Below the pieces are notes generated by a model, which was given only the letters and a program-made list of their open reading frames with translations, was not told where the DNA came from and searched no databases. Shown here one piece after another: positions 441 through 64,000 of a DNA stretch of 64,000 nt. Source of the stretch: Oasisia sp. SBJ-2009 (lineage: Eukaryota > Annelida > Polychaeta > Sabellida > Siboglinidae). Numbering within the stretch: the first letter of the stretch is position 1; each line of letters starts with the position of its first letter. The stretch covers positions 64,501-128,500 of the forward strand of contig OZ024856.1 in the NCBI GenBank assembly GCA_964017155.1, written 5' to 3'. A program made the position numbers and the translations under genes.

Positions 441-488
441 GGGGAAGTCTGTTTACATTCTTTTCAACAGAATTCCGTGCCGACCGCT

Positions 489-507
489 GGGTAAACGGCG
501 GGAGTAA
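489..507 (+). other. 28S rRNA-derived segment, sense (per unit)
   Basis: The 19-mer gggtaaacggcgggagtaa is identical to the conserved 28S rRNA stretch just upstream of the R2 insertion site. The next bases, taatgaac, still resemble 28S ctatgact. It is present in nearly every full unit; type C units carry one mismatch (cggcag). The 28S sequence is recalled from established knowledge, not searched. A 19-nt exact match beside two other pieces of the same 28S region is very unlikely by chance. Confidence 0.85.
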
Positions 508-515
508 TAATGAAC

Positions 516-570
516 CACTAACTACATGAGGTGACGAGGCATTTGGCGACCTTAACAGGGTGATAGTTGC
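516..570 (-). other. 28S rRNA-derived segment, antisense (per unit)
   Basis: Read on the minus strand this follows 28S from gtaactatgac through ttaagg and gccaaatgcctcgtca to ctaattagtg. There is a 16-nt exact core (tgacgaggcatttggc on +), a 5-bp insertion next to it, and a few substitutions. It spans the R2 cleavage position (AAGG/TAGCC in 28S), here with one change. It lies head-to-head with the sense piece just upstream. Other units carry derived versions of the core (tgtcaagacattt, tgacgaggcgatt). Confidence 0.85.
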
Positions 571-619
571 ACAAATCGAGGAAAACGACAAAGTCCGATC
601 CGTCTACGGGGGATCAGTT
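571..619 (+). repeat. 49-bp internal direct repeat, first-half copy
   Basis: The other copy of the motif, preceded by gatagttgc and followed by ttgagaatc. The two copies are 179 or 182 bp apart in a 361-bp unit. Some units have gagcaaaac in place of gaggaaaac in this copy only, so the two positions are not fully homogenised with each other. Confidence 0.9.
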
Positions 620-1495
620 TTGAGAATCGAGAGAAACGGCCAAGTTCGACGCGCCGGTCGGTCTTCTCGGGCGTATTCCACGCACGGAGTGTAACTACGA
701 CTCTATCGACGAAACCAACTAACCGTGCGCGTCGTCTTGCCAACTTTTGGAAACAAATCGAGGAAAACGACAAAGTCCGATCCGTCTACGGGGGATCAGT
801 TGGGGTAGTCTGTTTACATTCTTTTCAACAAAATTCCGTGCCGACCGCTGGGTAAACGGCGGGAGTAATAATGAACCACTAACTACATGAGGTGACGAGG
901 CATTTGTCGACCTTAACACGGTGATAGTTGCACAAATCGAGGAAAACGACAAAGTCCGATTCGTCTACGGGGGATCAGTTTTGAGAATCGAGAGAAACGG
1001 CCAAGTTCGACGCGCCGGTCGGTCTTCTCGGGCGTGTGCCACGCAAGGGGTGTAACTACGACTCTCTCGACGAAACCAACTGACCGTGCGCGTCGTCTTG
1101 CAAACTTTTGGAAACAAATCGAGGAAAACGACAAAGTCCGATCCGTCTACGGGGGATCAGTTGGGGAAATCTGTTTACATTCTTTTCAACAGAATTCCGT
1201 GCCGACCGCTGGGTAAACGGCGGGAGTAATAATGGACCACTAACTAGATGAGGTGTCAAGACATTTGGCGACCTTTACAGGGTGATAGTTGCACAAATCG
1301 AGCAAAACGACAAAGTCCGATCCGTCTACGGGGGATCAGTTTTGAGAATCGAGAGAAACGGCCAAGTTGGACGCGCCGGTCGGTCTTCTCGGGCGTATTC
1401 CACGCACGGAGTGTAACTACGACTCTATCGACGAAACCAACTAACCGTGCGCGTCGTCTTGCCAACTTTTGGAAACAAATCGAGGAAAACGACAA

Positions 1496-50500: not shown

Positions 50501-50700
50501 NNNNNNNNNNNNNNNNNNNNNNNNNNNNNNNNNNNNNNNNNNNNNNNNNNNNNNNNNNNNNNNNNNNNNNNNNNNNNNNNNNNNNNNNNNNNNNNNNNNN
50601 NNNNNNNNNNNNNNNNNNNNNNNNNNNNNNNNNNNNNNNNNNNNNNNNNNNNNNNNNNNNNNNNNNNNNNNNNNNNNNNNNNNNNNNNNNNNNNNNNNNN
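50501..50700. other. Assembly gap (200 N)
   Basis: Exactly 200 N. The flanks, ctgtttacat on the left and tcttttcaac on the right, are adjacent in the normal satellite unit, so the sequence is in register if the Ns are removed. The fixed length suggests a scaffolding placeholder, not a measured gap. Confidence 0.99.
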
Positions 50701-52126
50701 TCTTTTCAACAGAATTCCGTGCCGACCGCTGGGTAAACGGCGGGAGTAATAATGAACCACTAACTAGATGAGGTGTCAAGACATTTGGCGACCTTAACAA
50801 GGTGATAGTTGCACAAATCGAGCAAAACGACAAAGTCCGATCCGTCTACGGGGGATCAGTTTTGAGAATCGAGAGAAACGGCCAAGTTCGACGCGCCGGT
50901 CGGTCTTCTCGGGCGTGTGCCACGCAAGGGGTGTAACTACGACTCTCTCGACGAAACCAACTGACCGTGCGCGTCGTCTTGCCAACTTTTGGAAACAAAT
51001 CGAGGAAAACGACAAAGTCCGATCCGTCTACGGGGGATCAGTTGGGGAAGTCTGTTTACATTCTTTTCAACAGAATTCCGTGCCGACCGCTGGGTAAACG
51101 GCGGGAGTAATAATGAACCACTAACTAGATGAGGTGACGAGGCATTTGGCGACCTTAACAGGGTGATAGTTGCACAAATCGAGGAAAACGACAAAGTCCG
51201 ATCCGTCTACGGGGGATCAGTTTTGAGAATCGAGAGAAACGGCCAAGTTCGACGCGCCGGTCGGTCTTCTCGGGCGTATTCCACGCACGAAGTGGAACTA
51301 CGACTCTCTCGACGAAACCAAATGACCGTGCGCGTCGTCTTGCCAACTTTTGGAAACAAATCGAGGAAAACGACAAAGTCCGATCCGTCTACGGGGGATC
51401 AGTTGGGGAAGTCTGTTTACATTCTTTTCAACAAAATTCCGTGCCGACCGCTGGGTAAACGGCGGGAGTAATAATGAACCACTAACTAGATGAGGTGACG
51501 AGGCATTTGGCGACCTTAACAGGGTGATAGTTGCACAAATCGAGGAAAACGACAAAGTCCGAGCCGTCTACGGGGGATCAGTTTTGAGAATCGAGAGAAA
51601 CGGCCAAGTTCGACGCGCCGGTCGGTCTTCTCGGGCGTATTCCACGCACGGAGTGTAACTACGACTCTCTCGACGAAACCAACTGACCGTGCGCGTCGTC
51701 TTGCCAACTTTTGGAAACAAATCGAGGAAAACGACAAAGTCCGATCCGTCTACGGGGGATCAGTTGGGGAAGTCTGTTTACATTCTTTTCAACAGAATTC
51801 CTTGCCGACCGCTGGGTAAACGGCGGGAGTAATAATGAACCACTAACTAGATGAGGTGACGAGGCATTTGGCGACCTTAACAGGGTGATAGTTGCACAAA
51901 TCGAGGAAAACGACAAAGTCCTATCCGTCTACGGGGGATCAGTCTTGAGAATCGAGAGAAACGGCCAAGTTCGACGCGCTGGTCGGTCTTCTCGGCCGTA
52001 TTCCACGCACGGAGTGTAACTACGACTCTCTCGACGAAACCAACTGACCGTGCGCGTCGTCTTGCCAACTTTTGGAAACAAATCGAGGAAAACGACAAAG
52101 TCCGATCCGTCTACGGGGGATCAGTT
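50701..52126. repeat. Satellite array between gap and retrotransposon
   Basis: About four units of domain 2 type ending in the 49-bp motif, where the LINE is inserted. The units at 51,016-52,098 have close counterparts to the right of the LINE at about 57,290-58,375, so the LINE sits in a duplicated block of about 1,460 bp. Confidence 0.95.
52120..52126. repeat. Target-site duplication, left (ATCAGTT)
   Basis: Last 7 bp of the satellite before the element. The identical 7 bp is at 56,937-56,943, and the satellite then continues with ggggaagcg exactly as in uninterrupted units. Confidence 0.9.
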
Positions 52127-52328
52127 TGGACAAGCGAGGCGAGGAAACTTGGTGGATGCAGATGTTTGAATTTGGTGGTGTATAAAAGTTGAAAAACAAG
52201 CGGAAGTATTGATTGATAAGTATTATTTTTGTGCTAAGGTTATTCATAAGGGTGTACTAGACATATATTGAGTGGCAGTTTTGGTTAAATTTAGTTAGTA
52301 AACAGTATTTTTGAACAAATTAGTATAC

Positions 52329-52533
52329 GTGGGTGATAATAGGGTAATCTAACCTTCGACAAATTGTAAACAAGACTGAGCAAAATCTGTTTATTTGATA
52401 TCGTATATAAGAGACAAAGCAATAAGCGTAACAACTATATGTGTAAGGTAACACTCTGAATAGGTATCATTGTTATTAAAAATAAACAAGCTTTTTAGTA
52501 GGAATCCTTAGTTTGTGCAGACTATTATTTATA
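52329..52533 (+). repeat. 5' UTR tandem repeat, copy 1
   Basis: About 205 bp starting gtgggtgataatagggtaat. Aligned landmarks shared with copy 2 are agggtaatcta, attgtaaacaa, cattgttattaaaaataa and the cctagt/ccttagt near the end. By eye the copies are clearly related but diverged. Confidence 0.85.
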
Positions 52534-52729
52534 GTGGGTGAAATAGGGTAATCTAGCTTTCAACAAGATTGTAAACAAAACTTAGCAAATCTGATAAATT
52601 GATATGATATATAACAGATAAAGTGGTAAGCAAAACAGCTGCATACATAGGATAATTCTTTGATTCGGTGCCATTGTTATTAAAAATAAGCAAGTGTTTT
52701 AGCAGAAAGCCCTAGTCTGTTTATATAGG
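52534..52729 (+). repeat. 5' UTR tandem repeat, copy 2
   Basis: About 196 bp starting gtgggtgaaatagggtaat, directly after copy 1. It shares the same ordered landmarks with small indels. Repeated 5' UTR monomers serve as promoter units in some LINEs (mouse L1 is the known case); that role here is inference. Confidence 0.85.
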
Positions 52730-52908
52730 TAGTGTCCAAAGTATCCGCTAGGGAACGGTACCAGTACAGAATAAAATTATTGTTCATGGTAGCATAGGTA
52801 GTAAGTTGTTAATAACACGTAGTGTGCTGCAGTTGCTGTACACAATAAACAAACAGTCTTTCTAAAGACTAAGTTGGTATAAACTAAGTTGATTTGATCA
52901 ATCGTATT

Positions 52909-53964
52909 ATGGCACCTTCCAAGCGGCAAGTGAAGGCAAGGAGGCACTTGCTGTGTGATCACTGCCACAGCTTGGTGGATTTTGCCTTATCGGGGTGCGG
53001 AAAGTCTTGGTCAGAGACAACGGAGGAAGGGTTTACTTTCCAATGTTTAGGGTGTTGGAAAGTGGACTGTCTGACGGCAGAGCTAGCTAAGCTAACGGAT
53101 CTTGTGAAGGGGATGGAGAGAGGAGGGAGGATGATAGCAAGGAAAACAAATGGAGAAAGAACAACAGAAAACATGCCATGCATGAAGGAGACAGTGGAGA
53201 AAGTGACAGTAGAGAAGGAGGGAGGGACAAGGGGACAGGAGGTGATAGAAGTAGATGCGACAGGAGGAAAGACGAAGGGAAGAAAGGAACTGAGAGTAGA
53301 TATGACCAAACGGAAGATGTCAGGAAGAAAAGAGACAGGAAAGAAAGGAACAGAGAAAGCGGCAGGGGGAAAAGTCAGCAACCAGGGAGATGCAAAACGG
53401 AGGAGCTACTCTGAAGCAGTGATCGAGGGTGCATTGAGAACAGAAAGGGTTTTTATGGGCGACTCAATTTTGCGAAAGACGGACAAGACGTTAAACAAAG
53501 GAGAAGATGTTGTTGTTTGTCTTCCGGGCGCTCGGATTGAGCATGTGACAGACAGGGTAGAGAACGTGTTGGGGCATGGCCAGGGAGGATCGATATTAGT
53601 ACATGTAGGGACGAACAATGCAGACAGGGAGGGGACAACTAGAATAGTGCAAAGATACAGACAGTTGGTAGGGAAACTGAAGAAGACAAGAGTTGAACAG
53701 ATCATTATCTCAGGAATCTTACCAGTAATCGGAGGAAGGGGAGCAACCTATAGAAACTGTAAGAGGATGGCAATCAATGCTCTGGTGGAGCAGATGTGTG
53801 AAGGAGAAGGAGTTGGATTTGTAGATTTGTGGGGATACTTTGTTGGGAAGGAAGATATGTACGTGAGAGATGGCCTCCATCTAAGCGGAAAGGGCGCAGC
53901 AGTGTTCTCCGAGAACCTGCTTCAATCTATGGACAGAGGAACAGGTTGCAATTTTTTAAACTAG
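52909..53964 (+). CDS. LINE ORF1: zinc-binding, SGNH-esterase protein
   Basis: 351 residues from the ATG at 52,909, which has A at -3 and G at +4. An upstream in-frame TTG at 52,894 is not needed. Residues 16-54 hold CxxC (16, 19) and CxxC (46, 49), with further Cys at 30 and 54, a likely zinc-binding fold. Residues about 70-175 are a Lys/Arg/Glu/Gly/Thr-rich linker. From about 180 comes an SGNH/GDSL hydrolase domain: GDS at 184-186, GTNN at 234-237 and DGLH at 321-324, giving a probable triad of Ser186, Asp321 and His324. Esterase ORF1 proteins of CR1/L2 elements are thought to act in the retrotransposition RNP; the substrate is unknown. The stop TAG is at 53,962, two codons after a slippery heptamer. 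Confidence 0.9.
   Translation: MAPSKRQVKARRHLLCDHCHSLVDFALSGCGKSWSETTEEGFTFQCLGCWKVDCLTAELAKLTDLVKGMERGGRMIARKTNGERTTENMPCMKETVEKVTVEKEGGTRGQEVIEVDATGGKTKGRKELRVDMTKRKMSGRKETGKKGTEKAAGGKVSNQGDAKRRSYSEAVIEGALRTERVFMGDSILRKTDKTLNKGEDVVVCLPGARIEHVTDRVENVLGHGQGGSILVHVGTNNADREGTTRIVQRYRQLVGKLKKTRVEQIIISGILPVIGGRGATYRNCKRMAINALVEQMCEGEGVGFVDLWGYFVGKEDMYVRDGLHLSGKGAAVFSENLLQSMDRGTGCNFLN
53952..53958 (+). promoter_or_regulatory. Candidate -1 frameshift site (T TTT TTA)
   Basis: In the ORF1 frame the codons are AAT TTT TTA AAC TAG, so the heptamer is T TTT TTA in the X XXY YYZ phase required for -1 slippage. Slipping leads to AAA CTA GTT, which is the ORF2 frame. Positions 53,963-53,974 can pair with 54,053-54,064 (ten Watson-Crick pairs, one G-U, one C-A mismatch, long loop) and could be the stimulating stem. 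Confidence 0.5.
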
Positions 53965-56663
53965 TTTCGCAGGGGGGATACACAGAGAAGCCAAATACTA
54001 GAGGCATAGCTAAAGACAGCAAAAAGAAATCAGCAAAAAACAGCCTGGAAAGCCCTACGAAATTTGGTTATAAATGTGTTTGTTTAAATGCAAGGAGCAT
54101 AGTAAACAAAAGAAATGAACTAAACATTATGGTAGAAGATATTGACCCTCACATAATAGGTATAACTGAATCTTGGGCCACCCCCGATATATCAGATGCC
54201 GAATTAGGAATGACAGGATATGTAATGTTTAGGAAAGATAGATTAGGAAGAAGGGGAGGCGGAGTTATTTTATATATTAAAGAATCCATCCAGGCTTATG
54301 AAATAAAATTAGAAAAAGAAGCAGAATGTGAAGCTGTCTGGTGTAACATAGTTACAGGAAACTCAACATTAACTGTTGGGTTAGTTTATCGTAGTCCAAA
54401 CATAAGCATAGAAGAGAATGAAAAAATGCACAACGCTATAAAAGAAGTGAGTAAACGGGACTGTATTATTATGGGGGATTTTAACCATGGGCATATAAAG
54501 TGGACATCTCTACAGAGTCCTGGGAGAGAGGATCAAGAGTTTTTAAATTTAGTACAAGATAGTTTCCTTTTTCAACATGTGTTAGAACCAACCAGGGACA
54601 AGAACGTGTTGGACATAGTTTTGAGCTCACAGAAGGAATTTGTTGATAATGTCAATATATGTGAGCCACTGGGATGTAGTGATCATAACCAGATACATTT
54701 TATCATCAAAGTAAAAGGAGAACGGAACAGTAAAATACGGTACAGGAAAAATTTTCACAAAGGAAGATATAAGGACATGAGGGAATATTTAGCGAAGATA
54801 GACTGGAATAACACACTGAAGAATAAGACAGCAACAGAATGCTGGAATATCTTAAAGAGGGAAATTGACTGCGTCGTTGACAAATTTGTCCCCTTGAAAA
54901 AACAAGGGAAAAGGTCAAAGAAGAAACACTTATCGAAGGACGCCATTAGAAAAATCAAGTACAAGCAAATGATGTGGAAGACATATAGACATACTGGAAG
55001 TGAAGAAGACTATGCCATTTATAAAGAAGCACTTAATCAAGCTACAGCTGAAATTAGAAATTCGAAGAGAAGCTATGAACAAAAAATAGCTTTCAACATA
55101 AAACATGACAGCAAGAGTTTTTATGCGTATGTTCGAAGTAAACAGAAAGTTCAAGATAAGGTCGGGCCACTAGAAGGTAGTGATGGAAACATAATAACGG
55201 AGGGATTCTTAATGGCAGAAAACCTAAATGAATACTTTAGTTCGGTGTTTACCAGGGAAGATATTAGTACATTACCAGTACTAGAGACTAAGTTCGAAGG
55301 GAGAGAGTGTGACTATTTACGACAACTAACTGTAACCCCAAAAATGGTAGCTATGAAAATAAGAGATATGAAGGATAATAAATCACCAGGAGTGGATGGG
55401 ATTCCTCCCAAATTACTACTGGAAATTGTAGAACAAATTAGCATACCACTTGCAACAGTGTTTAATTTGGCATTAGAGGAAGGAGTGGTTCCGGTAGAAT
55501 GGAAAGAAGCAAACATCATACCATTATTTAAAAAAGGATCAAGAAGCAAGTCAGAGAACTATAGGCCAGTGAGTTTAACATCGGTGATTTGTAAACTATT
55601 AGAAAGACTAATTAAAGATCACTTGGTTGATTTTCTTGTTAAAAATAAATTGATAAACACATCTCAACATGGGTTTTTAAAAGCGAGGTCATGCTTAACA
55701 AATATGTTATGTTTTTTGGAAGATGTCACAAAGTGGGTAGATGAGGGATCACCAGTAGATATAATCTATTTAGATTTTAAAAAAGCCTTTGACAAAGTGC
55801 CACACCAAAGATTACTACTTAAACTAAAGGCCCATGGCATAGGAAATAGTATGATTAACTGGATAGAAAAATGGCTTATTGATAGAAGACAAAGAGTAGT
55901 AGTTGATGGGGAGGTTTCAAATTGGAAATCTGTTTTGAGTGGAGTACCGCAAGGATCAGTATTGGGACCTATTTTATTCTTAATATATATCAATGATTTG
56001 GATGATGACGTAACAAGCAAGGTGTTGAAGTTTGCGGACGACACAAAAGTGTTTAGGAAAATAAAAAGTGATGCAGATAGACAGCATTTACAAGATGATC
56101 TAAATAAGTTGATAGAATGGTCTGAGAAATGGCAAATGCTGTTTAACTTTGGAAAGTGTAAGTGCCTCCACACAGGACATGGGAATGAAAATGCACAATA
56201 TACAATGGGTGGTACTGTACTAAATACTACTGTAAAGGAAAAGGACTTAGGTTTAACCATTAGTGCTGACATGAAGGTATCAGAGCAGTGTGGAATTGCA
56301 GCAGCGAAGGCAAACCAAATTCTTGGATTAATTAGGCGAAATATAGTATACAAAGAAAAAGAACTAATAATACCGCTTTATAAAACAATAGTTAGGCCTC
56401 ATTTAGAATATTGTATACAAGCATGGAGGCCATATCGCAAGAAGGATATTGATATGCTAGAAAGAGTACAAAGGAGAGCAACAAAAATGATACCAAAACT
56501 CAGGAATATTAGTTATGAAATGCGTCTAAAAGAATGTGGTCTAACAACACTCGAAACCAGAAGATTGAGAGGAGATCAGATTGAGGTTTTTAAAATATTG
56601 AATGGGTATGAAAATATTGACAGAAATATTTTTTTTCACGGTCAAGGAAGAGAGAAGGACTAG
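53958..56663 (+). CDS. LINE ORF2: APE endonuclease and reverse transcriptase
   Basis: Frame open from 53,802 and overlapping ORF1. There is no ATG until 54,129, so I start it at the proposed frameshift codon; that gives 901 residues to the stop. The endonuclease has Asn in LNARS (54,087), Glu in ITESW (54,168), GDFN (54,474-54,485) and SDH (54,678-54,686), the usual APE catalytic set. The reverse transcriptase has NKSPGVDGIP (about 55,380), the ENYRPVSL region, LDFKKAFD with catalytic Asp at 55,773, SGVPQGSVLGP (about 55,937-55,970) and FADD (56,031-56,042). The C-terminal VRPHLEY region follows. The product would nick target DNA and copy element RNA at the nick. The frame ends early at 56,661-56,663 because of one extra T at 56,629-56,636. 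Confidence 0.92.
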   Translation, partial: KLVSQGGYTEKPNTRGIAKDSKKKSAKNSLESPTKFGYKCVCLNARSIVNKRNELNIMVEDIDPHIIGITESWATPDISDAELGMTGYVMFRKDRLGRRGGGVILYIKESIQAYEIKLEKEAECEAVWCNIVTGNSTLTVGLVYRSPNISIEENEKMHNAIKEVSKRDCIIMGDFNHGHIKWTSLQSPGREDQEFLNLVQDSFLFQHVLEPTRDKNVLDIVLSSQKEFVDNVNICEPLGCSDHNQIHFIIKVKGERNSKIRYRKNFHKGRYKDMREYLAKIDWNNTLKNKTATECWNILKREIDCVVDKFVPLKKQGKRSKKKHLSKDAIRKIKYKQMMWKTYRHTGSEEDYAIYKEALNQATAEIRNSKRSYEQKIAFNIKHDSKSFYAYVRSKQKVQDKVGPLEGSDGNIITEGFLMAENLNEYFSSVFTREDISTLPVLETKFEGRECDYLRQLTVTPKMVAMKIRDMKDNKSPGVDGIPPKLLLEIVEQISIPLATVFNLALEEGVVPVEWKEANIIPLFKKGSRSKSENYRPVSLTSVICKLLERLIKDHLVDFLVKNKLINTSQHGFLKARSCLTNMLCFLEDVTKWVDEGSPVDIIYLDFKKAFDKVPHQRLLLKLKAHGIGNSMINWIEKWLIDRRQRVVVDGEVSNWKSVLSGVPQGSVLGPILFLIYINDLDDDVTSKVLKFADDTKVFRKIKSDADRQHLQDDLNKLIEWSEKWQMLFNFGKCKCLHTGHGNENAQYTMGGTVLNTTVKEKDLGLTISADMKVSEQCGIAAAKANQILGLIRRNIVYKEKELIIPLYKTIVRPHLEYCIQAWRPYRKKDIDMLERVQRRATKMIPKLRNISYEMRLKECGLTTLETRRLRGDQIEVFKILNGYENIDRNIFFHGQGREKD

Positions 56664-56841
56664 AGGACATGGAGTTGCATTAGCAAAGAAGCAGTGTAGA
56701 CTAGATATTAGAAAATTTTCATTTTCCCAAAGAATAGTAAACGAATGGAACAAATTATCAGCTGATTGTGTAGGTGCTAGAAGTGTTAATATGTTTAAAA
56801 ATAAAATTGACATATACCTAAGACGGGCAGGGTATACTTAG
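56637..56841 (+). pseudogene. Displaced C-terminal part of ORF2
   Basis: In the +1 frame after the eight-T run, about 68 more residues continue to TAG at 56,839-56,841. They include TRGHGVAL, FSFSQRIVNEWNKLS and a closing MFKNKID segment, which look like the usual C-terminal end of CR1/L2 ORF2. Seven Ts would keep the frame. Either a true mutation or a homopolymer sequencing error would explain this. Confidence 0.8.
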
Positions 56842-56889
56842 ATAGATAGGTTGGACTCTCGATAAGCCAAACGGCTTCCTTGTCCACCT

Positions 56890-56917
56890 GCCATCTAGAG
56901 TTGATTCTCTAGGTGGC
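56890..56917 (+). other. 3' hairpin, probable RT recognition structure
   Basis: Arms gccatctagag and ctctaggtggc form an 11-bp stem with one G-U pair and a 6-nt loop, ttgatt. Stem-loops just before the 3' end are recognised by the RT in L2-type elements; that role here is by analogy. Confidence 0.75.
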
Positions 56918-56919
56918 AA

Positions 56920-56935
56920 TCTTGTTATCTTGTTA
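56920..56935 (+). repeat. 3' octamer tail (TCTTGTTA x2)
   Basis: Two perfect tandem octamers at the very 3' end, followed by one a and the target-site duplication. Short tandem tail repeats in place of poly(A) are typical of CR1/L2 LINEs. Confidence 0.85.
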
Positions 56936-56936
56936 A

Positions 56937-56943
56937 ATCAGTT
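56937..56943. repeat. Target-site duplication, right (ATCAGTT)
   Basis: Identical to 52,120-52,126. The satellite resumes with ggggaagcgtaaatg, a type B unit. Confidence 0.9.
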
Positions 56944-58396
56944 GGGGAAGCGTAAATGTCTGTTTACATTCTTTTCAACAGAATTCCGTGGCGACCGCTG
57001 GGTAAACGGCGGGAGTAATAATGAACCACTAACTAGATGAGGTGTCAAGACATTTGGCGACCTTAACAGGGTGATAGTTGCACAAATCGAGCAAAACGAC
57101 AAAGTCCGATCCGTCTACGGGGGATCAGTTTTGAGAATCGAGAGAAACGGCCAAGTTCGACGCGCCGGTCGGTCTTCTCGGGCGTGTGCCACGCAAGGGT
57201 TGTAACTACGACTCTCTCGACGAAACCAACTGACCGTGCGCGTCGTCTTGCCAAGTTTTGGAAACAAATCGAGGAAAACGACAAAGTCCGATCCGTCCAC
57301 GGGGGATCAGTAGTGGAAGCGTAAATGTCTGTGTACATTCTTTTCAACAGAATTCCGTACCGACCGCTGGGTAAACGGAGGGAGTAATAATGAACCACTA
57401 ACTAGATGAGGTGACGAGGCGATTGGCGACCTTAACAGGGTGATAGTTGCACAAATCGAGGAAAACGACAAAGTCCGATCCGTCTACGGGGGATCAGTTT
57501 TGAGAATCGAGAGAAACGGCCAAGTTCGACGCGCCGGTCGGTCTTCTCGGGCGTATTCCACGCACGAAGTGGAACTACGACTCTCTCGACGAAACCAAAT
57601 GACCGTGCGCGTCGTCTTGCCAACTTTTGGAAACAAATCGAGGAAAACGACAAAGTCCGATCCGTCTACGGGGGATCAGTTGGGGAAGTCTGTTTACATT
57701 CTTTTCAACAAAATTCCGTGCCGACCGCTGGGTAAACGGCGGGAGTAATAATGAACCACTAACTAGATGAGGTGACGAGGCATTTGGCGACCTTAACAGG
57801 GTGATAGTTGCACAAATCGAGGAAAACGACAAAGTCCGAGCCGTCTACGGGGGATCAGTTTTGAGAATCGAGAGAAACGGCCAAGTTCGACGCGCCGGTC
57901 GGTCTTCTCGGGCGTATTCCACGCACGGAGTGTAACTACGACTCTCTCGACGAAACCAACTGACCGTGCGCGTCGTCTTGCCAACTTTTGGAAACAAATC
58001 GAGGAAAACGACAAAGTCCGATCCGTCTACGGGGGATCAGTTGGGGAAGTCTGTTTACATTCTTTTCAACAGAATTCCGTGCCGACCGCTGGGTAAACGG
58101 CGGGAGTAATAATGAACCACTAACTAGATGAGGTGACGAGGCATTTGGCGACCTTAACAGGGTGATAGTTGCACAAATCGAGGAAAACGACAAAGTCCTA
58201 TCCGTCTACGGGGGATCAGTTTTGAGAATCGAGAGAAACGGCCAAGTTCGACGCGCTGGTCGGTCTTCTCGGCCGTATTCCACGCACGGAGTGTAACTAC
58301 GACTCTCTCGACGAAACCAACTGACCGTGCGCGTCGTCTTGCCAACTTTTGGAAACAAATCGAGGAAAACGACAAAGTCCGATCCGTCTACGGGGG

Positions 58397-58403
58397 ATCA
58401 GTT
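58397..58403. other. Paralogous empty LINE target site
   Basis: atcagtt followed by ggggaagcgtaaatg, in the duplicated counterpart of the unit that holds the LINE. It is uninterrupted, with no tail or scar, so it shows the state before insertion. Confidence 0.75.
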
Positions 58404-61400
58404 GGGGAAGCGTAAATGTCTGTTTACATTCTTTTCAACAGAATTCCGTGGCGACCGCTGGGTAAACGGCGGGAGTAATAATGAACCACTAACTAGATGA
58501 GGTGTCAAGACATTTGGCGACCTTAACAGGGTGATAGTTGCACAAATCGAGCAAAACGACAAAGTCCGATCCGTCTACGGGGGATCAGTTTTGAGAATCG
58601 AGAGAAACGGCCAAGTTCGACGCGCCGGTCGGTCTTCTCGGGCGTGTGCCACGCAAGGGTTGTAACTACGACTCTCTCGACGAAACCAACTGACCGTGCG
58701 CGTCGTCTTGCCAAGTTTTGGAAACAAATCGAGGAAAACGACAAAGTCCGATCCGTCCACGGGGGATCAGTAGTGGAAGCGTAAATGTCTGTGTACATTC
58801 TTTTCAACAGAATTCCGTGCCGACCGCTGGGTAAACGGAGGGAGTAATAATGATCCACTAACTAGATGAGGTGACGAGGCGATTGGCGACCTTAACACGG
58901 TGATAGTTGCACAAATCGAGGAAAACGACAAAGTCCGATTCGTCTACGGGGGATCAGTTTTGAGAATCGAGAGAAACGGCCAAGTTCGACGCGCCGGTCG
59001 GTCTTCTCGGGCGTGTGCCACGCAAGGGGTGTAACTACGACTCTCTCGACGAAACCAACTGACCGTGCGCGTCGTCTTGCAAACTTTTGGAAAAAGTCCG
59101 ATCCGTCTACGGGGGATCAGTTGGGGAAATCTGTTTACATTCTTTTCAACAGAATTCCGTGCCGACCGCTGGGTAAACGGCGGGAGTAATAATGAACCAC
59201 TAACTAGATGAGGTGTCAAGACATATGGCGACCTTAACAAGGTGATAGTTGCACAAATCGAGCAAAACGACAAAGTCCGATCCGTCTACGGGGGATCAGT
59301 TTTGAGAATCGAGAGAAACGGCCAAGTTCGACGCGCCGGTCGGTCTTCTCGGGCGTATTCCACGCACGAAGTGGAACTACGACTCTCTCGACGAAACCAA
59401 ATGACCGTGCGCGTCGTCTTGCCAACTTTTGGAAACAAATCGAGGAAAACGACAAAGTCCGATCCGTCTACGGGGGATCAGTTGGGGAAGTCTGTTTACA
59501 TTCTTTTCAACAAAATTCCGTGCCGACCGCTGGGTAAACGGCGGGAGTAATAATGAACCACTAACTAGATGAGGTGACGAGGCATTTGGCGACCTTAACA
59601 GGGTGATAGTTGCACAAATCGAGGAAAACGACAAAGTCCGATCCGTCTACGGGGGATCAGTTTTGAGAATCGAGAGAAACGGCCAAGTTCGACGCGCCGG
59701 TTGGTCTTCTCGGGCGTGTGCCACGCAAGGGTTGTAACTACGACTCTCTCGACGAAACCAACTGACCGTGCGCGTCGTCTTGCCAAGTTTTGGAAACAAA
59801 TCGAGGAAAACGACAAAGTCCGATCCGTCTACGGGGGATCAGTTGGGGAAGTCTGTTTACATTCTTTTCAACAGAATTCCGTGCCGACCGCTGGGTAAAC
59901 GGCGGGAGTAATAATGAACCACTAACTAGATGAGGTGACGAGGCATTTGGCGACCTTAACAGGGTGATAGTTGCACAAATCGAGGAAAACGACAAAGTCC
60001 GATTCGTCTACGGGGGATCAGTTTTGAGAATCGAGAGAAACGGCCAAGTTCGACGCGCCGGTCGGTCTTCTCGGGCGTGTGCCACGCAAGGGGTGTAACT
60101 ACGACTCTCTCGACGAAACCAACTGACCGTGCGCGTCGTCTTGCAAACTTTTGAAAACAAATCGAGGAAAACGAGAAAGTCCGATCCGTCTACGGGGGGA
60201 TCAGTTGGGGAAATCTGTTTACATTCTTTTCAACAGAATTCCGTGCCGACCGCTGGGTAAACGGCGGGAGTAATAATGAACCACTAACTAGATGAGGTGT
60301 CAAGACATTTGGCGACCTTAACAGGGTGATAGTTGCACAAATCGAGCAAAACGACAAAGTCCGATCCGTCTACGGGAGATCAGTTTTGAGAATCGAGAGA
60401 AACGGCCAAGTTCGACGCGCCGGTCGGTCTTCTCGGGCGTGTGCCACGCAAGGGGTGTAACTACGACTCTCTCGACGAAACCAACTGACCGTGCGCGTCG
60501 TCTTGCCAACTTTTGGAAACAAATCGAGGAAAACGACAAAGTCCGATCCGTCTACGGGGGATCAGTTGGGGAAGCGTAAATGTATGTTTACATTATTTTC
60601 TACATAATTCCGTGCCGATCGCTGGGTAAACGGCGGCAGTAATAATGATGAACCACTAACTAGATGAGGTGACGAGGCATTTGGCGACCTTGTCAGGGTG
60701 ATAGTTGCACAAATCGGGCAAAACGACAAAGTCCGATCCGTCTACGGGGGATCAGTTTTGGGAATCGAGAGAAACGGCCAAGTTCGACGCGCCGGTCGGT
60801 CTCCTCGGGCGTGTGCCACGCACGGGGTGTAACTACGACTCTCTCGACGAAACCAACTGACCGTGCGCGTCGTCTTGCCAACTTTTGGAAACAAATCGAG
60901 GAAAACGACAAAGTCCGATCCGTCTACGGGGGATCAGTTGGGGAAGTCTGTTTACATTCTTTTCAACAGAATTCCGTGCCGACCGCTGGGTAAACGGCGG
61001 GAGTAATAATGAACCACTAACTAGATGAGGTGACGAGGCATTTGGCGACCTTAACAGGGTGATAGTTGCACAAATCGAGGAAAACGACAAAGTCCTATCC
61101 GTCTACGGGGGATCAGTTTTGAGAATCGAGAGAAACGGCCAAGTTCGACGCGCTGGTCGGTCTTCTCGGCAGTATTCCACGCACGGAGTGTAACTACGAC
61201 TCTCTCGACGAAACCAACTGACCGTGCGCGTCGTCTTGCCAACTTTTGGAAACAAATCGAGGAAAACGACAAAGTCCGATCCGTCTACGGGGGATCAGTT
61301 GGGGAAGCGTAAATGTCTGTTTACATTCTTTTCAACAGAATTCCGTGGCGACCGCTGGGTAAACGGCGGGAGTAATAATGAACCACTAACTAGATGAGGT

Positions 61401-61449
61401 GTCAAGACATTTGGCGACCTTAACAGGGTGATAGTTGCACAAATCGAGC

Positions 61450-62190
61450 AAAACGACAAAGTCCGATCCGTCTACGGGGGATCAGTTTTGAGAATCGAGA
61501 GAAACGGCCAAGTTCGACGCGCCGGTCGGTCTTCTCGGGCGTGTGCCACGCAAGGGTTGTAACTACGACTCTCTCGACGAAACCAACTGACCGTGCGCGT
61601 CGTCTTGCCAAGTTTTGGAAACAAATCGAGGAAAACGACAAAGTCCGATCCGTCCACGGGGGATCAGTAGTGGAAGCGTAAATGTCTGTGTACATTCTTT
61701 TCAACAGAATTCCGTGCCGACCGCTGGGTAAACGGAGGGAGTAATAATGAACCACTAACTAGATGAGGTGACGAGGCGATTGGCGACCTTAACACGGTGA
61801 TAGTTGCACAAATCGAGGAAAACGACAAAGTCCGATTCGTCTACGGGGGATCAGTTTTGAGAATCGAGAGAAACGGCCAAGTTCGACGCGCCGGTCGGTC
61901 TTCTCGGGCGTGTGCCACGCAAGGGTTGTAACTACGACTCTCTCGACGAAACCAACTGACCGTGCGCGTCGTCTTGCCAAGTTTTGGAAACAAATCGAGG
62001 AAAACGACAAAGTCCGATCCGTCCACGGGGGATCAGTAGTGGAAGCGTAAATGTCTGTGTACATTCTTTTCAACAGAATTCCGTGCCGACCGCTGGGTAA
62101 ACGGAGGGAGTAATAATGAACCACTAACTAGATGAGGTGACGAGGCGATTGGCGACCTTAACACGGTGATAGTTGCACAAATCGAGGAAA
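61450..62190. repeat. Local tandem duplication of a 369-bp unit
   Basis: The gtccacgggggatcagtagtgg unit, elsewhere single, occurs twice in a row with 369-bp spacing (61,641 and 62,010). The two copies differ at few places, for example gagcaaaac against gaggaaaac and gatccgtc against gattcgtc at their left ends. Confidence 0.85.
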
Positions 62191-64000
62191 ACGACAAAGT
62201 CCGATTCGTCTACGGGGGATCAGTTTTGAGAATCGAGAGAAACGGCCAAGTTCGACGCGCCGGTCGGTCTTCTCGGGCGTGTGCCACGCAAGGGGTGTAA
62301 CTACGACTCTCTCGACGAAACCAACTGACCGTGCGCGTCGTCTTGCAAACTTTTGGAAACAAATCGAGGAAAACGACAAAGTCCGATCCGTCTACGGGGG
62401 ATCAGTTGGGGAAATCTGTTTACATTCTTTTCAACAGAATTCCGTGCCGACCGCTGGGTAAGCGGCGGGAGTAATAATGAACCACTAACTAGATGAGGTG
62501 TCAAGACATTTGGCGACCTTAACAGGGTGATAGTTGCACAAATCGAGCAAAACGACAAAGTCCGATCCGTCTACGGGGGATCAGTTTTGAGAATCGAGAG
62601 AAACGGCCAAGTTCGACGCGCCGGTCGGTCTTCTCGGGCGTGTGCCACGCAAGGGGTGTAACTACGACTCTCTCGACGAAACCAACTGACCGTGCGCGTC
62701 GTCTTGCCAACTTTTGGAAACAAATCGAGGAAAACGACAAAGTCCGATCCGTCTACGGGGGATCAGTTGGGGAAGTCTGTTTACATTCTTTTCAACAGAA
62801 TTCCGTGCCGACCGCTGGGTAAACGGCGGGAGTAATAATGAACCACTAACTAGATGAGGTGACGAGGCATTTGGCGACCTTAACAGGGTGATAGTTGCAC
62901 AAATCGAGGAAAACGACAAAGTCCGATCCGTCTACGGGGGATCAGTTTTGAGAATCGAGAGAAACGGCCAAGTTCGACGCGCCGGTCGGTCTTCTCGGGC
63001 GTATTCCACGCACGAAGTGGAACTACGACTCTCTCGACGAAACCAAATGACCGTGCGCGTCGTCTTGCCAACTTTTGGAAACAAATCGAGGAAAACGACA
63101 AAGTCCGATCCGTCTACGGGGGATCAGTTGGGGAAGTCTGTTTACATTCTTTTCAACAAAATTCCGTGCCGACCGCTGGGTAAACGGCGGGAGTAATAAT
63201 GAACCACTAACTAGATGAGGTGACGAGGCATTTGGCGACCTTAACAGGGTGATAGTTGCACAAATCGAGCAAAACGACAAAGTCCCATCCGTCTACGGGG
63301 GATCAGTTTTGAGAATCGAGAGAAACGGCCAAGTTGGACGCGCCGGTCGGCCTTCTCGGGCGTGTGCCACGCAAGGGGTGTAACTACCACTCTCTCGACG
63401 AAACCAACTGACCGTGCGCGTCGTCTTGCCAACTTTTGGAAACAAATCGAGGAAAACGACAAAGTCCGATCCGTCTACGGGGGATCAGTTGGGGAAGTCT
63501 GTTTACATTCTTTTCAACAGAATTCCGTGCCGACCGCTGGGTAAACGGCGGGAGTAATAATGAACCACTAACTAGATGAGGTGACGAGGCATTTGGCGAC
63601 CTTAACAGGGTGATAGTTGCACAAATCGAGGAAAACGACAAAGTCCGATTCGTCTACGGGGGATCAGTTTTGAGAATCGAGAGAAACGGCCAAGTTCGAC
63701 GCGCCGGTCGGTCTTCTCGGGCGTGTGCCACGCAAGGGGTGTAACTACCACTCTCTCGACGAAACCAACTGACCGTGCGCGTCGTCTTGCAAACTTTTGG
63801 AAACAAATCGAGGAAAACGACAAAGTCCGATCCGTCTACGGGGGATCAGTAGTGGAAGCGTAAATGTCTGTGTACATTCTTTTCAACAGAATTCCGTGCC
63901 GACCGCTGGGTAAACGGAGGGAGTAATAATGAACCACTAACTAGATGAGGTGACGAGGCGATTGGCGACCTTAACACGGTGATAGTTGCACAAATCGAGG

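Follow-up and report, generated by a model that had tools for sequence, protein, structure and literature searches.

The window analysed here, the whole stretch of 64,000 nucleotides at C3:64501-128500 (contig OZ024856.1 of Oasisia sp. SBJ-2009; genome of 764 Mb in 33 contigs), is filled by a 361-bp satellite whose unit carries three pieces of the 28S rRNA gene, all taken from around the insertion site of the retrotransposon R2. The 28S origin of these pieces is near certain. As to how they came to be there, we lean towards a satellite seeded from 28S target sequence that R2 had mobilised, and which was then dimerised, inverted and amplified and is now drifting.

The unit is made of two half-units, A (~179 bp) and B (~182 bp). 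In the unit at 441-801, half A carries a sense piece (489-507, plus strand) identical at 19/19 bases to 28S -36 to -18, numbered from the R2 site. After eight other bases follows an antisense piece (516-568, minus strand; 28S +29 to -19), which runs across the R2 site without a break (TTAAGGTCGCC for TTAAGGTAGCC) and has a 5-nt insertion in its distal part. Half B retains the direct 28S order, with a second sense piece (686-725, plus strand; 28S ~-25 to +16) that is degraded past CTCTCT and clearer in a sister family of the satellite. The host 28S reference was obtained by joining the flanks of an R2-occupied fragment, L028 on contig C9. Its upstream 28S reaches -98 by alignment with the reference gene L003 and ~-117 by similarity to another R2 locus, L031; the downstream 28S runs from +1 to at least +79 and is traceable by BLASTN for ~566 nt. 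Against this reference, the antisense piece was identical at 43/48 positions, plus the insertion, and the second sense piece at 31/41.

The preliminary description had reported three short exact 28S stretches within about 70 nt of each other in the gene. The sense 19-mer (489-507) and the antisense 16-mer (532-547) are indeed exact in this unit, and the third, a 16-mer, is exact in some units only, the unit at 441-801 having GTAACTACGACTCTAT at 691-706, two mismatches away. All three lie within ~65 nt of 28S (-36 to +29), and the antisense piece is longer than first noted (~53 nt instead of 16). In the whole window the three stretches occur exactly 99, 85 and 20 times (expected 0.00, from 100 dinucleotide shuffles), and 156, 156 and 167 times with up to 3, 4 and 3 substitutions, respectively. 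The two pieces of half A overlap by 2 nt of 28S, and therefore the simplest account would be one contiguous fragment, from -36 to +29, with its distal part inverted. The inverted arrangement itself is well supported.

To the eight large subunit (LSU) rRNA genes used as references (L001-L008; eukaryotic genes present as contaminants in prokaryote assemblies, confirmed as RF02543) we aligned a unit consensus built from 153 units. Each gene gave exactly three local matches with a score of at least 26, always the same three (40, 30 and 57 against L003). Among 1000 mononucleotide shuffles (mean 22.2, sd 2.1, maximum 34), 65 reached 26. The Gumbel p was 5e-10 at score 56 (the antisense piece, against another LSU gene) and 3e-5 at score 38; the third match (score 30) was not significant alone. 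A search with the LSU profile (nhmmer) recovered the same three matches, with E values of 1.2e-8, 6e-4 and 0.05. The ribosomal DNA (rDNA) origin at the R2 region, as proposed beforehand, is thus well supported by the alignment and shuffle tests, and with a significant alignment to an rRNA gene, the host’s own included, the repeat belongs with the rDNA-derived satellites. Extensions of the pieces were weak against unrelated LSU genes, their scores being reached by 10-23 of 200 shuffles downstream of the second sense piece, by 6-55 of 200 at the distal end of the antisense piece, and by still more for the others. The first two extensions were clearer against the host 28S and the sister family. 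A further 28S match found under loose scoring, in the core shared by the half-units and ~335 nt upstream, was dropped, as it did not recur under strict scoring. In one reference gene (L006), a match to a group I intron begins ~4 nt inside the 28S pattern used for the search.

R2 elements are present in the genome. L028 has an R2 at the canonical position between upstream and downstream 28S, internally deleted. Its C-terminal product matched the solved chain 8gh6_A (E 6e-13), labelled only as a reverse transcriptase-like protein, and chains labelled as R2 retrotransposon protein (E 3e-10). L031 matched L028 over 799 bp. Together with L041 it forms a stretch (C7:5051408-5056400) of short R2 copies placed head to tail, a 3' poly-T end being directly followed by the next R2 5' end; this stretch had one 28S match. 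L029 is a 5'-truncated R2 with the reverse transcriptase motif LAFADD and 73% identity over 1127 bp to L075. The latter, which also matched L028, is an R2 3' end running into 28S from +1 to ~+158 and then diverging. L061 and L062, both on C13, have R2 5' ends matching L031, preceded by a fused block in which 28S +1 to +75 is joined to upstream 28S (~-140, by eye). An unrelated insert splits the block in L062.

We searched the host genome with 28-mers, allowing up to two mismatches. The R2-site 28-mer was found at 133 places, at least five of them outside the satellite (among the 100 matches listed), and a second, less biased pattern at 2462 places. The control 28-mers from the peptidyl-transferase region and from the upstream region of 28S were found nowhere in the assembly. 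The control from the +140 region was found at two places, one of them L028, and in both an R2 3' end is followed by 28S beginning at +1. The stray 28S seen in the assembly is therefore concentrated at the R2 site, the controls giving 0, 0 and 2 places and both of the latter adjoining R2 3' junctions. These counts seem not to be inflated by rDNA arrays, since a 25-mer across the empty R2 site had no exact copy in the assembly, from which ordinary rDNA arrays seem to be absent. Nine non-satellite loci with 28S from the R2 region were read: five from the R2-site 28-mer, three from the second pattern and one from the +140 control. Six of the nine were fused to R2 (L028, L029, L031, L061, L062 and L075), which suggests that R2 had a part in founding the satellite.

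The satellite sense piece and L030 begin at -36, L029 at -37, and the copies in L032 at -40, -36 and -35. In other animals, R2 ribozymes cleave the 28S RNA 9 to 36 nt upstream of the site, as stated in an excerpt of PMC3774820. Such cleavage of R2 transcripts within 28S gives a route to RNA carrying the target sequence. The founder, perhaps a ~180-bp monomer, would have held a ~65-nt 28S fragment spanning the R2 site (-36 to +29), moved out of rDNA by R2 retrotransposition or R2 RNA processing. The monomer would then have dimerised, the distal part (-18 to +29) would have been inverted in one half, and the 361-bp dimer would have been amplified by unequal exchange. Today it evolves like any ordinary satellite. 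Only their shared core, their length and the 28S region common to both lead us to infer a 180-bp ancestor of the two halves. It is also possible, if doubtful, that R2 has been exporting its 28S target from rDNA in this animal, via RNAs with flanking 28S and a 5' end out to the ribozyme limit of -36, and that a major satellite, present near the ends of several contigs of chromosome size, was founded by one such export.

A number of results weigh against seeding by R2. The 28S runs through the R2 site without interruption in both halves, and the unit has no R2 sequence, be it open reading frame (ORF), 5' ribozyme or 3' untranslated region: in comparison with the six R2-bearing loci only its 28S pieces matched above chance. 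The earlier suggestion that R2-like elements might match the non-rDNA part of the unit holds as far as the presence of R2 in the genome goes, but the match is confined to the 28S pieces. Three of the nine loci (L030, L032 and L060) are solo 28S fragments that pass through the empty site without R2, and simple R2 retrotransposition does not explain them. A start at -36 is not universal either, with L060 at -32 and L028, L031, L061 and L062 far upstream, and the R2-site 28-mer itself begins at -36. By eye, the ribozyme of the R2 5' ends in L028 and L031 looks to cut at the R2 junction and not at -36. The nine loci are an incomplete set (from among the matches listed, 100 of 133 and 100 of 2462), the upstream control 28-mer is exact in only one of the eight LSU references, and counted like for like, outside the satellite only, the contrast is 5 (among the matches listed) versus 2, 0 and 0. 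Finally, the A-specific and B-specific parts of the half-units aligned no better than shuffles. Because neither the unit nor the solo fragments contain R2, and because the 28S begins at -32 in L060 and far upstream in four loci, the step from R2 to the satellite is one that we infer, and the involvement of R2 in the seeding is best called more likely than not.

Some other candidate readings were rejected. The position -36 as a universal R2 RNA end was not upheld with the less biased pattern. That the satellite has an ancestral relative in L032 is a lead only, as its matches to non-28S parts were weak: with segments picked by eye, 8, 5 and 35 of 500 shuffles scored as high. A profile match of the unit to the L028 flank (E 0.05) and an 18-nt match to L060 were both at chance level, and homology of A and B outside the core was given up, the similarity not exceeding that of shuffles.

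The strongest competitor is passive capture, in which a random 28S fragment, gained through DNA repair or from an extrachromosomal rDNA circle, was amplified near a chromosome end and overlaps the R2 site by coincidence. We give it an appreciable chance, below even. The lack of R2 sequence in the unit, the continuous 28S through the site in both halves and the three solo fragments all speak for it, and rDNA fragments amplified as satellites are already known (excerpt of PMC10257491). It fits less well with the distribution of stray 28S, namely the control counts of 0, 0 and 2, the two at R2 junctions, as opposed to at least five non-satellite places plus the satellite at the R2 site. By our own estimate, a random 65-nt piece of a 3.3-kb gene would cover the site in ~2% of cases.

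Two other explanations fare worse. The satellite might be kept as a landing platform or sink for R2 that spares the working rDNA, for which its many target-like sites (the 2462 places) and the R2 elements in the genome could speak. We consider this very improbable: both orientations of the site carry mutations, the 28S-like stretches vary, if anything, more than the remainder of the unit, and the window is free of inserts besides one CR1-like element. That the matches are due to chance similarity or convergence is scarcely conceivable. Looser local scoring did not distinguish the unit from shuffles and an Rfam search of the unit gave no LSU match, but under strict scoring the antisense piece alone has p ~5e-10 and all three matches fall in the same stretch in 8/8 LSU genes. 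The strict LSU alignment, the LSU profile search and the alignment to the host 28S refute chance similarity. The export of its 28S target by R2, if true, would mean that a site-specific retrotransposon turns its own landing site into satellite DNA. As a rule the origin of a satellite cannot be traced. In this case one component comes from a slowly evolving gene of known ancestral sequence, which allows the succession of fragment, dimer, inversion, amplification and spread to be followed base by base, and makes it possible to test what part a site-specific retrotransposon plays in producing satellite DNA.

The 28S-like variants had been taken as ancestral, giving a direction to satellite evolution. 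This is only partly supported, the evidence being mixed: the sister family has a more 28S-like B piece, but the key variant could be of either polarity. Across the 153 units, the 28S base was the majority at 27 of 30 polymorphic 28S-like positions, while of 97 positions compared the consensus itself departed from 28S at 14. Compared with the common form, the variant first proposed as ancestral, GTAACTATGACTCTCT, has a CpG changed to TpG. Ten of the 153 full units carry it, each together with a non-28S base nine positions upstream; in the sampled arrays it occurs in 12/240 units on C3, 0/44 on C1 and 0/49 on C2. The same variant (CTATGACTC) is thus rarer and in the window linked to a non-28S base; it could be old, since in the sister family the same T adjoins the more 28S-like AAGCC. 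A polymorphism of TGACGAGGC versus TGTCAAGAC is common to C1, C2 and C3, and in each the 28S base is commoner at the three changed positions. Mean diversity was 0.059 in the 28S-like stretches versus 0.037 elsewhere, a value reached by 33 of 361 circular shifts, and hence the array shows no conservation of its 28S-like stretches.

The window starts 64 kb from the beginning of C3, a chromosome-sized contig of 58.3 Mb. Tandem Repeats Finder (TRF) gave the 361-bp period across it, and apart from the CR1-like insert and an N run at 50501-50700 it is satellite throughout. The dimeric array occupies 1-50500 (plus strand; from TRF, unit identity, autocorrelation and coverage), and resumes past the assembly gap, a 200-base N run, at 50701-52126 and past the CR1-like insertion at 56937-64000 (both plus strand; from TRF and coverage), continuing at C3:140001-157953. 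Its limits on C3 are ~11360 and ~157953, as read at 10-30 kb and 140-160 kb, with matches in between. Units were on average 95.9% identical to the consensus (153 units, each 330-400 bp). Half-unit comparison showed a 47-nt core common to the start of both half-units, at 573-619 for half B and 755-801 for the next half A (both plus strand). Now and then spacings of 181-183 bp occur, corresponding to extra half-units. Autocorrelation over 1-50000 also gave higher-order periods, of ~3461 and 8735 bp in 1-22000 and of ~1460 and 7136 bp further right.

With near-identical head-to-tail units in long arrays at several loci, this is a real satellite, ordinary in behaviour and unusual in origin. Elsewhere, the 361-bp unit was found on C1 (near 0.57 and 1.03 Mb), C2 (near 0.42 Mb) and C4 (from ~28 kb). 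The sister family is located on C1 (0.90 Mb), C3 (0.86 Mb), C4 (57.6 of 58.2 Mb) and C8 (52.8 of 54.0 Mb), and among the matches listed a pattern of its type continues at C1 1.52-1.60 Mb. Its 28S part in half B is clearer (GGGAGTAACTACGACTCTCTCGAGGAAGCCCAATGGC-CGT at C4 57.6 Mb): the B piece there is identical to host 28S -25 to +16 at 34/41 positions, versus 31/41 in the window. Some sister-family matches (among those listed) are 178-182 bp apart, and TRF gave a period of 179 bp (2.4 copies) for L050, suggesting that a B-type monomer can exist alone.

The array is presumably subtelomeric, as it lies near the contig end; no plain telomere array was seen left of it on C3. There we found mixed sequence over ~3.4 kb as well as a minisatellite (L017 2501-7939) with 47 copies of a 115-bp unit that contains CCCTAACCCTAACCC, preceded by a 2.5-kb N run. 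The starts of C1 and C2 (L026, L027) and the right flank of the C3 array (right end of L021) share, by eye, a different repeat-like sequence. On C1, the satellite orientation flips at L022 7212-7411, inside a 10-kb stretch holding a 200-base gap, so that the array is either self-inverted or misjoined. The only insert within the window array is the CR1-like non-LTR (long terminal repeat) element at 52127-56936. It has a GDSL-type ORF1, an ORF2 with endonuclease and reverse transcriptase whose frame is broken near the 3' end, and a 7-bp target duplication (ATCAGTT); a protein search gave 577 relatives.

A literature search over titles and the starts of abstracts found no satellite with this arrangement, and we make no wider claim of its being unpublished. 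Of the known systems, lamprey Germ1, a germline-restricted repeat present on several chromosomes, combines 28S truncated at the R2 region with a non-rDNA part (excerpt of PMC9734144, citing Strange and Moore 2019). According to the same excerpt, its boundary is the R2 3' junction and its other part is said to be R2-derived. In our unit, by contrast, the 28S crosses the site, and thereby that junction, and is partly inverted. Copies of R1 and R2 outside rDNA are described for Drosophila in an excerpt of PMC2718515: in D. ananassae the intergenic spacer (IGS) holds 22 bp of the R1 target site, and in D. simulans an R1-R2 fusion is tandemly arrayed outside rDNA. The unit differs from these in having no R element sequence. 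With the rDNA- or IGS-derived satellites (excerpt of PMC10257491) it shares an rDNA fragment amplified in tandem, but here the fragment is an internal 65-nt piece of coding 28S, located at the target of a mobile element and rearranged.
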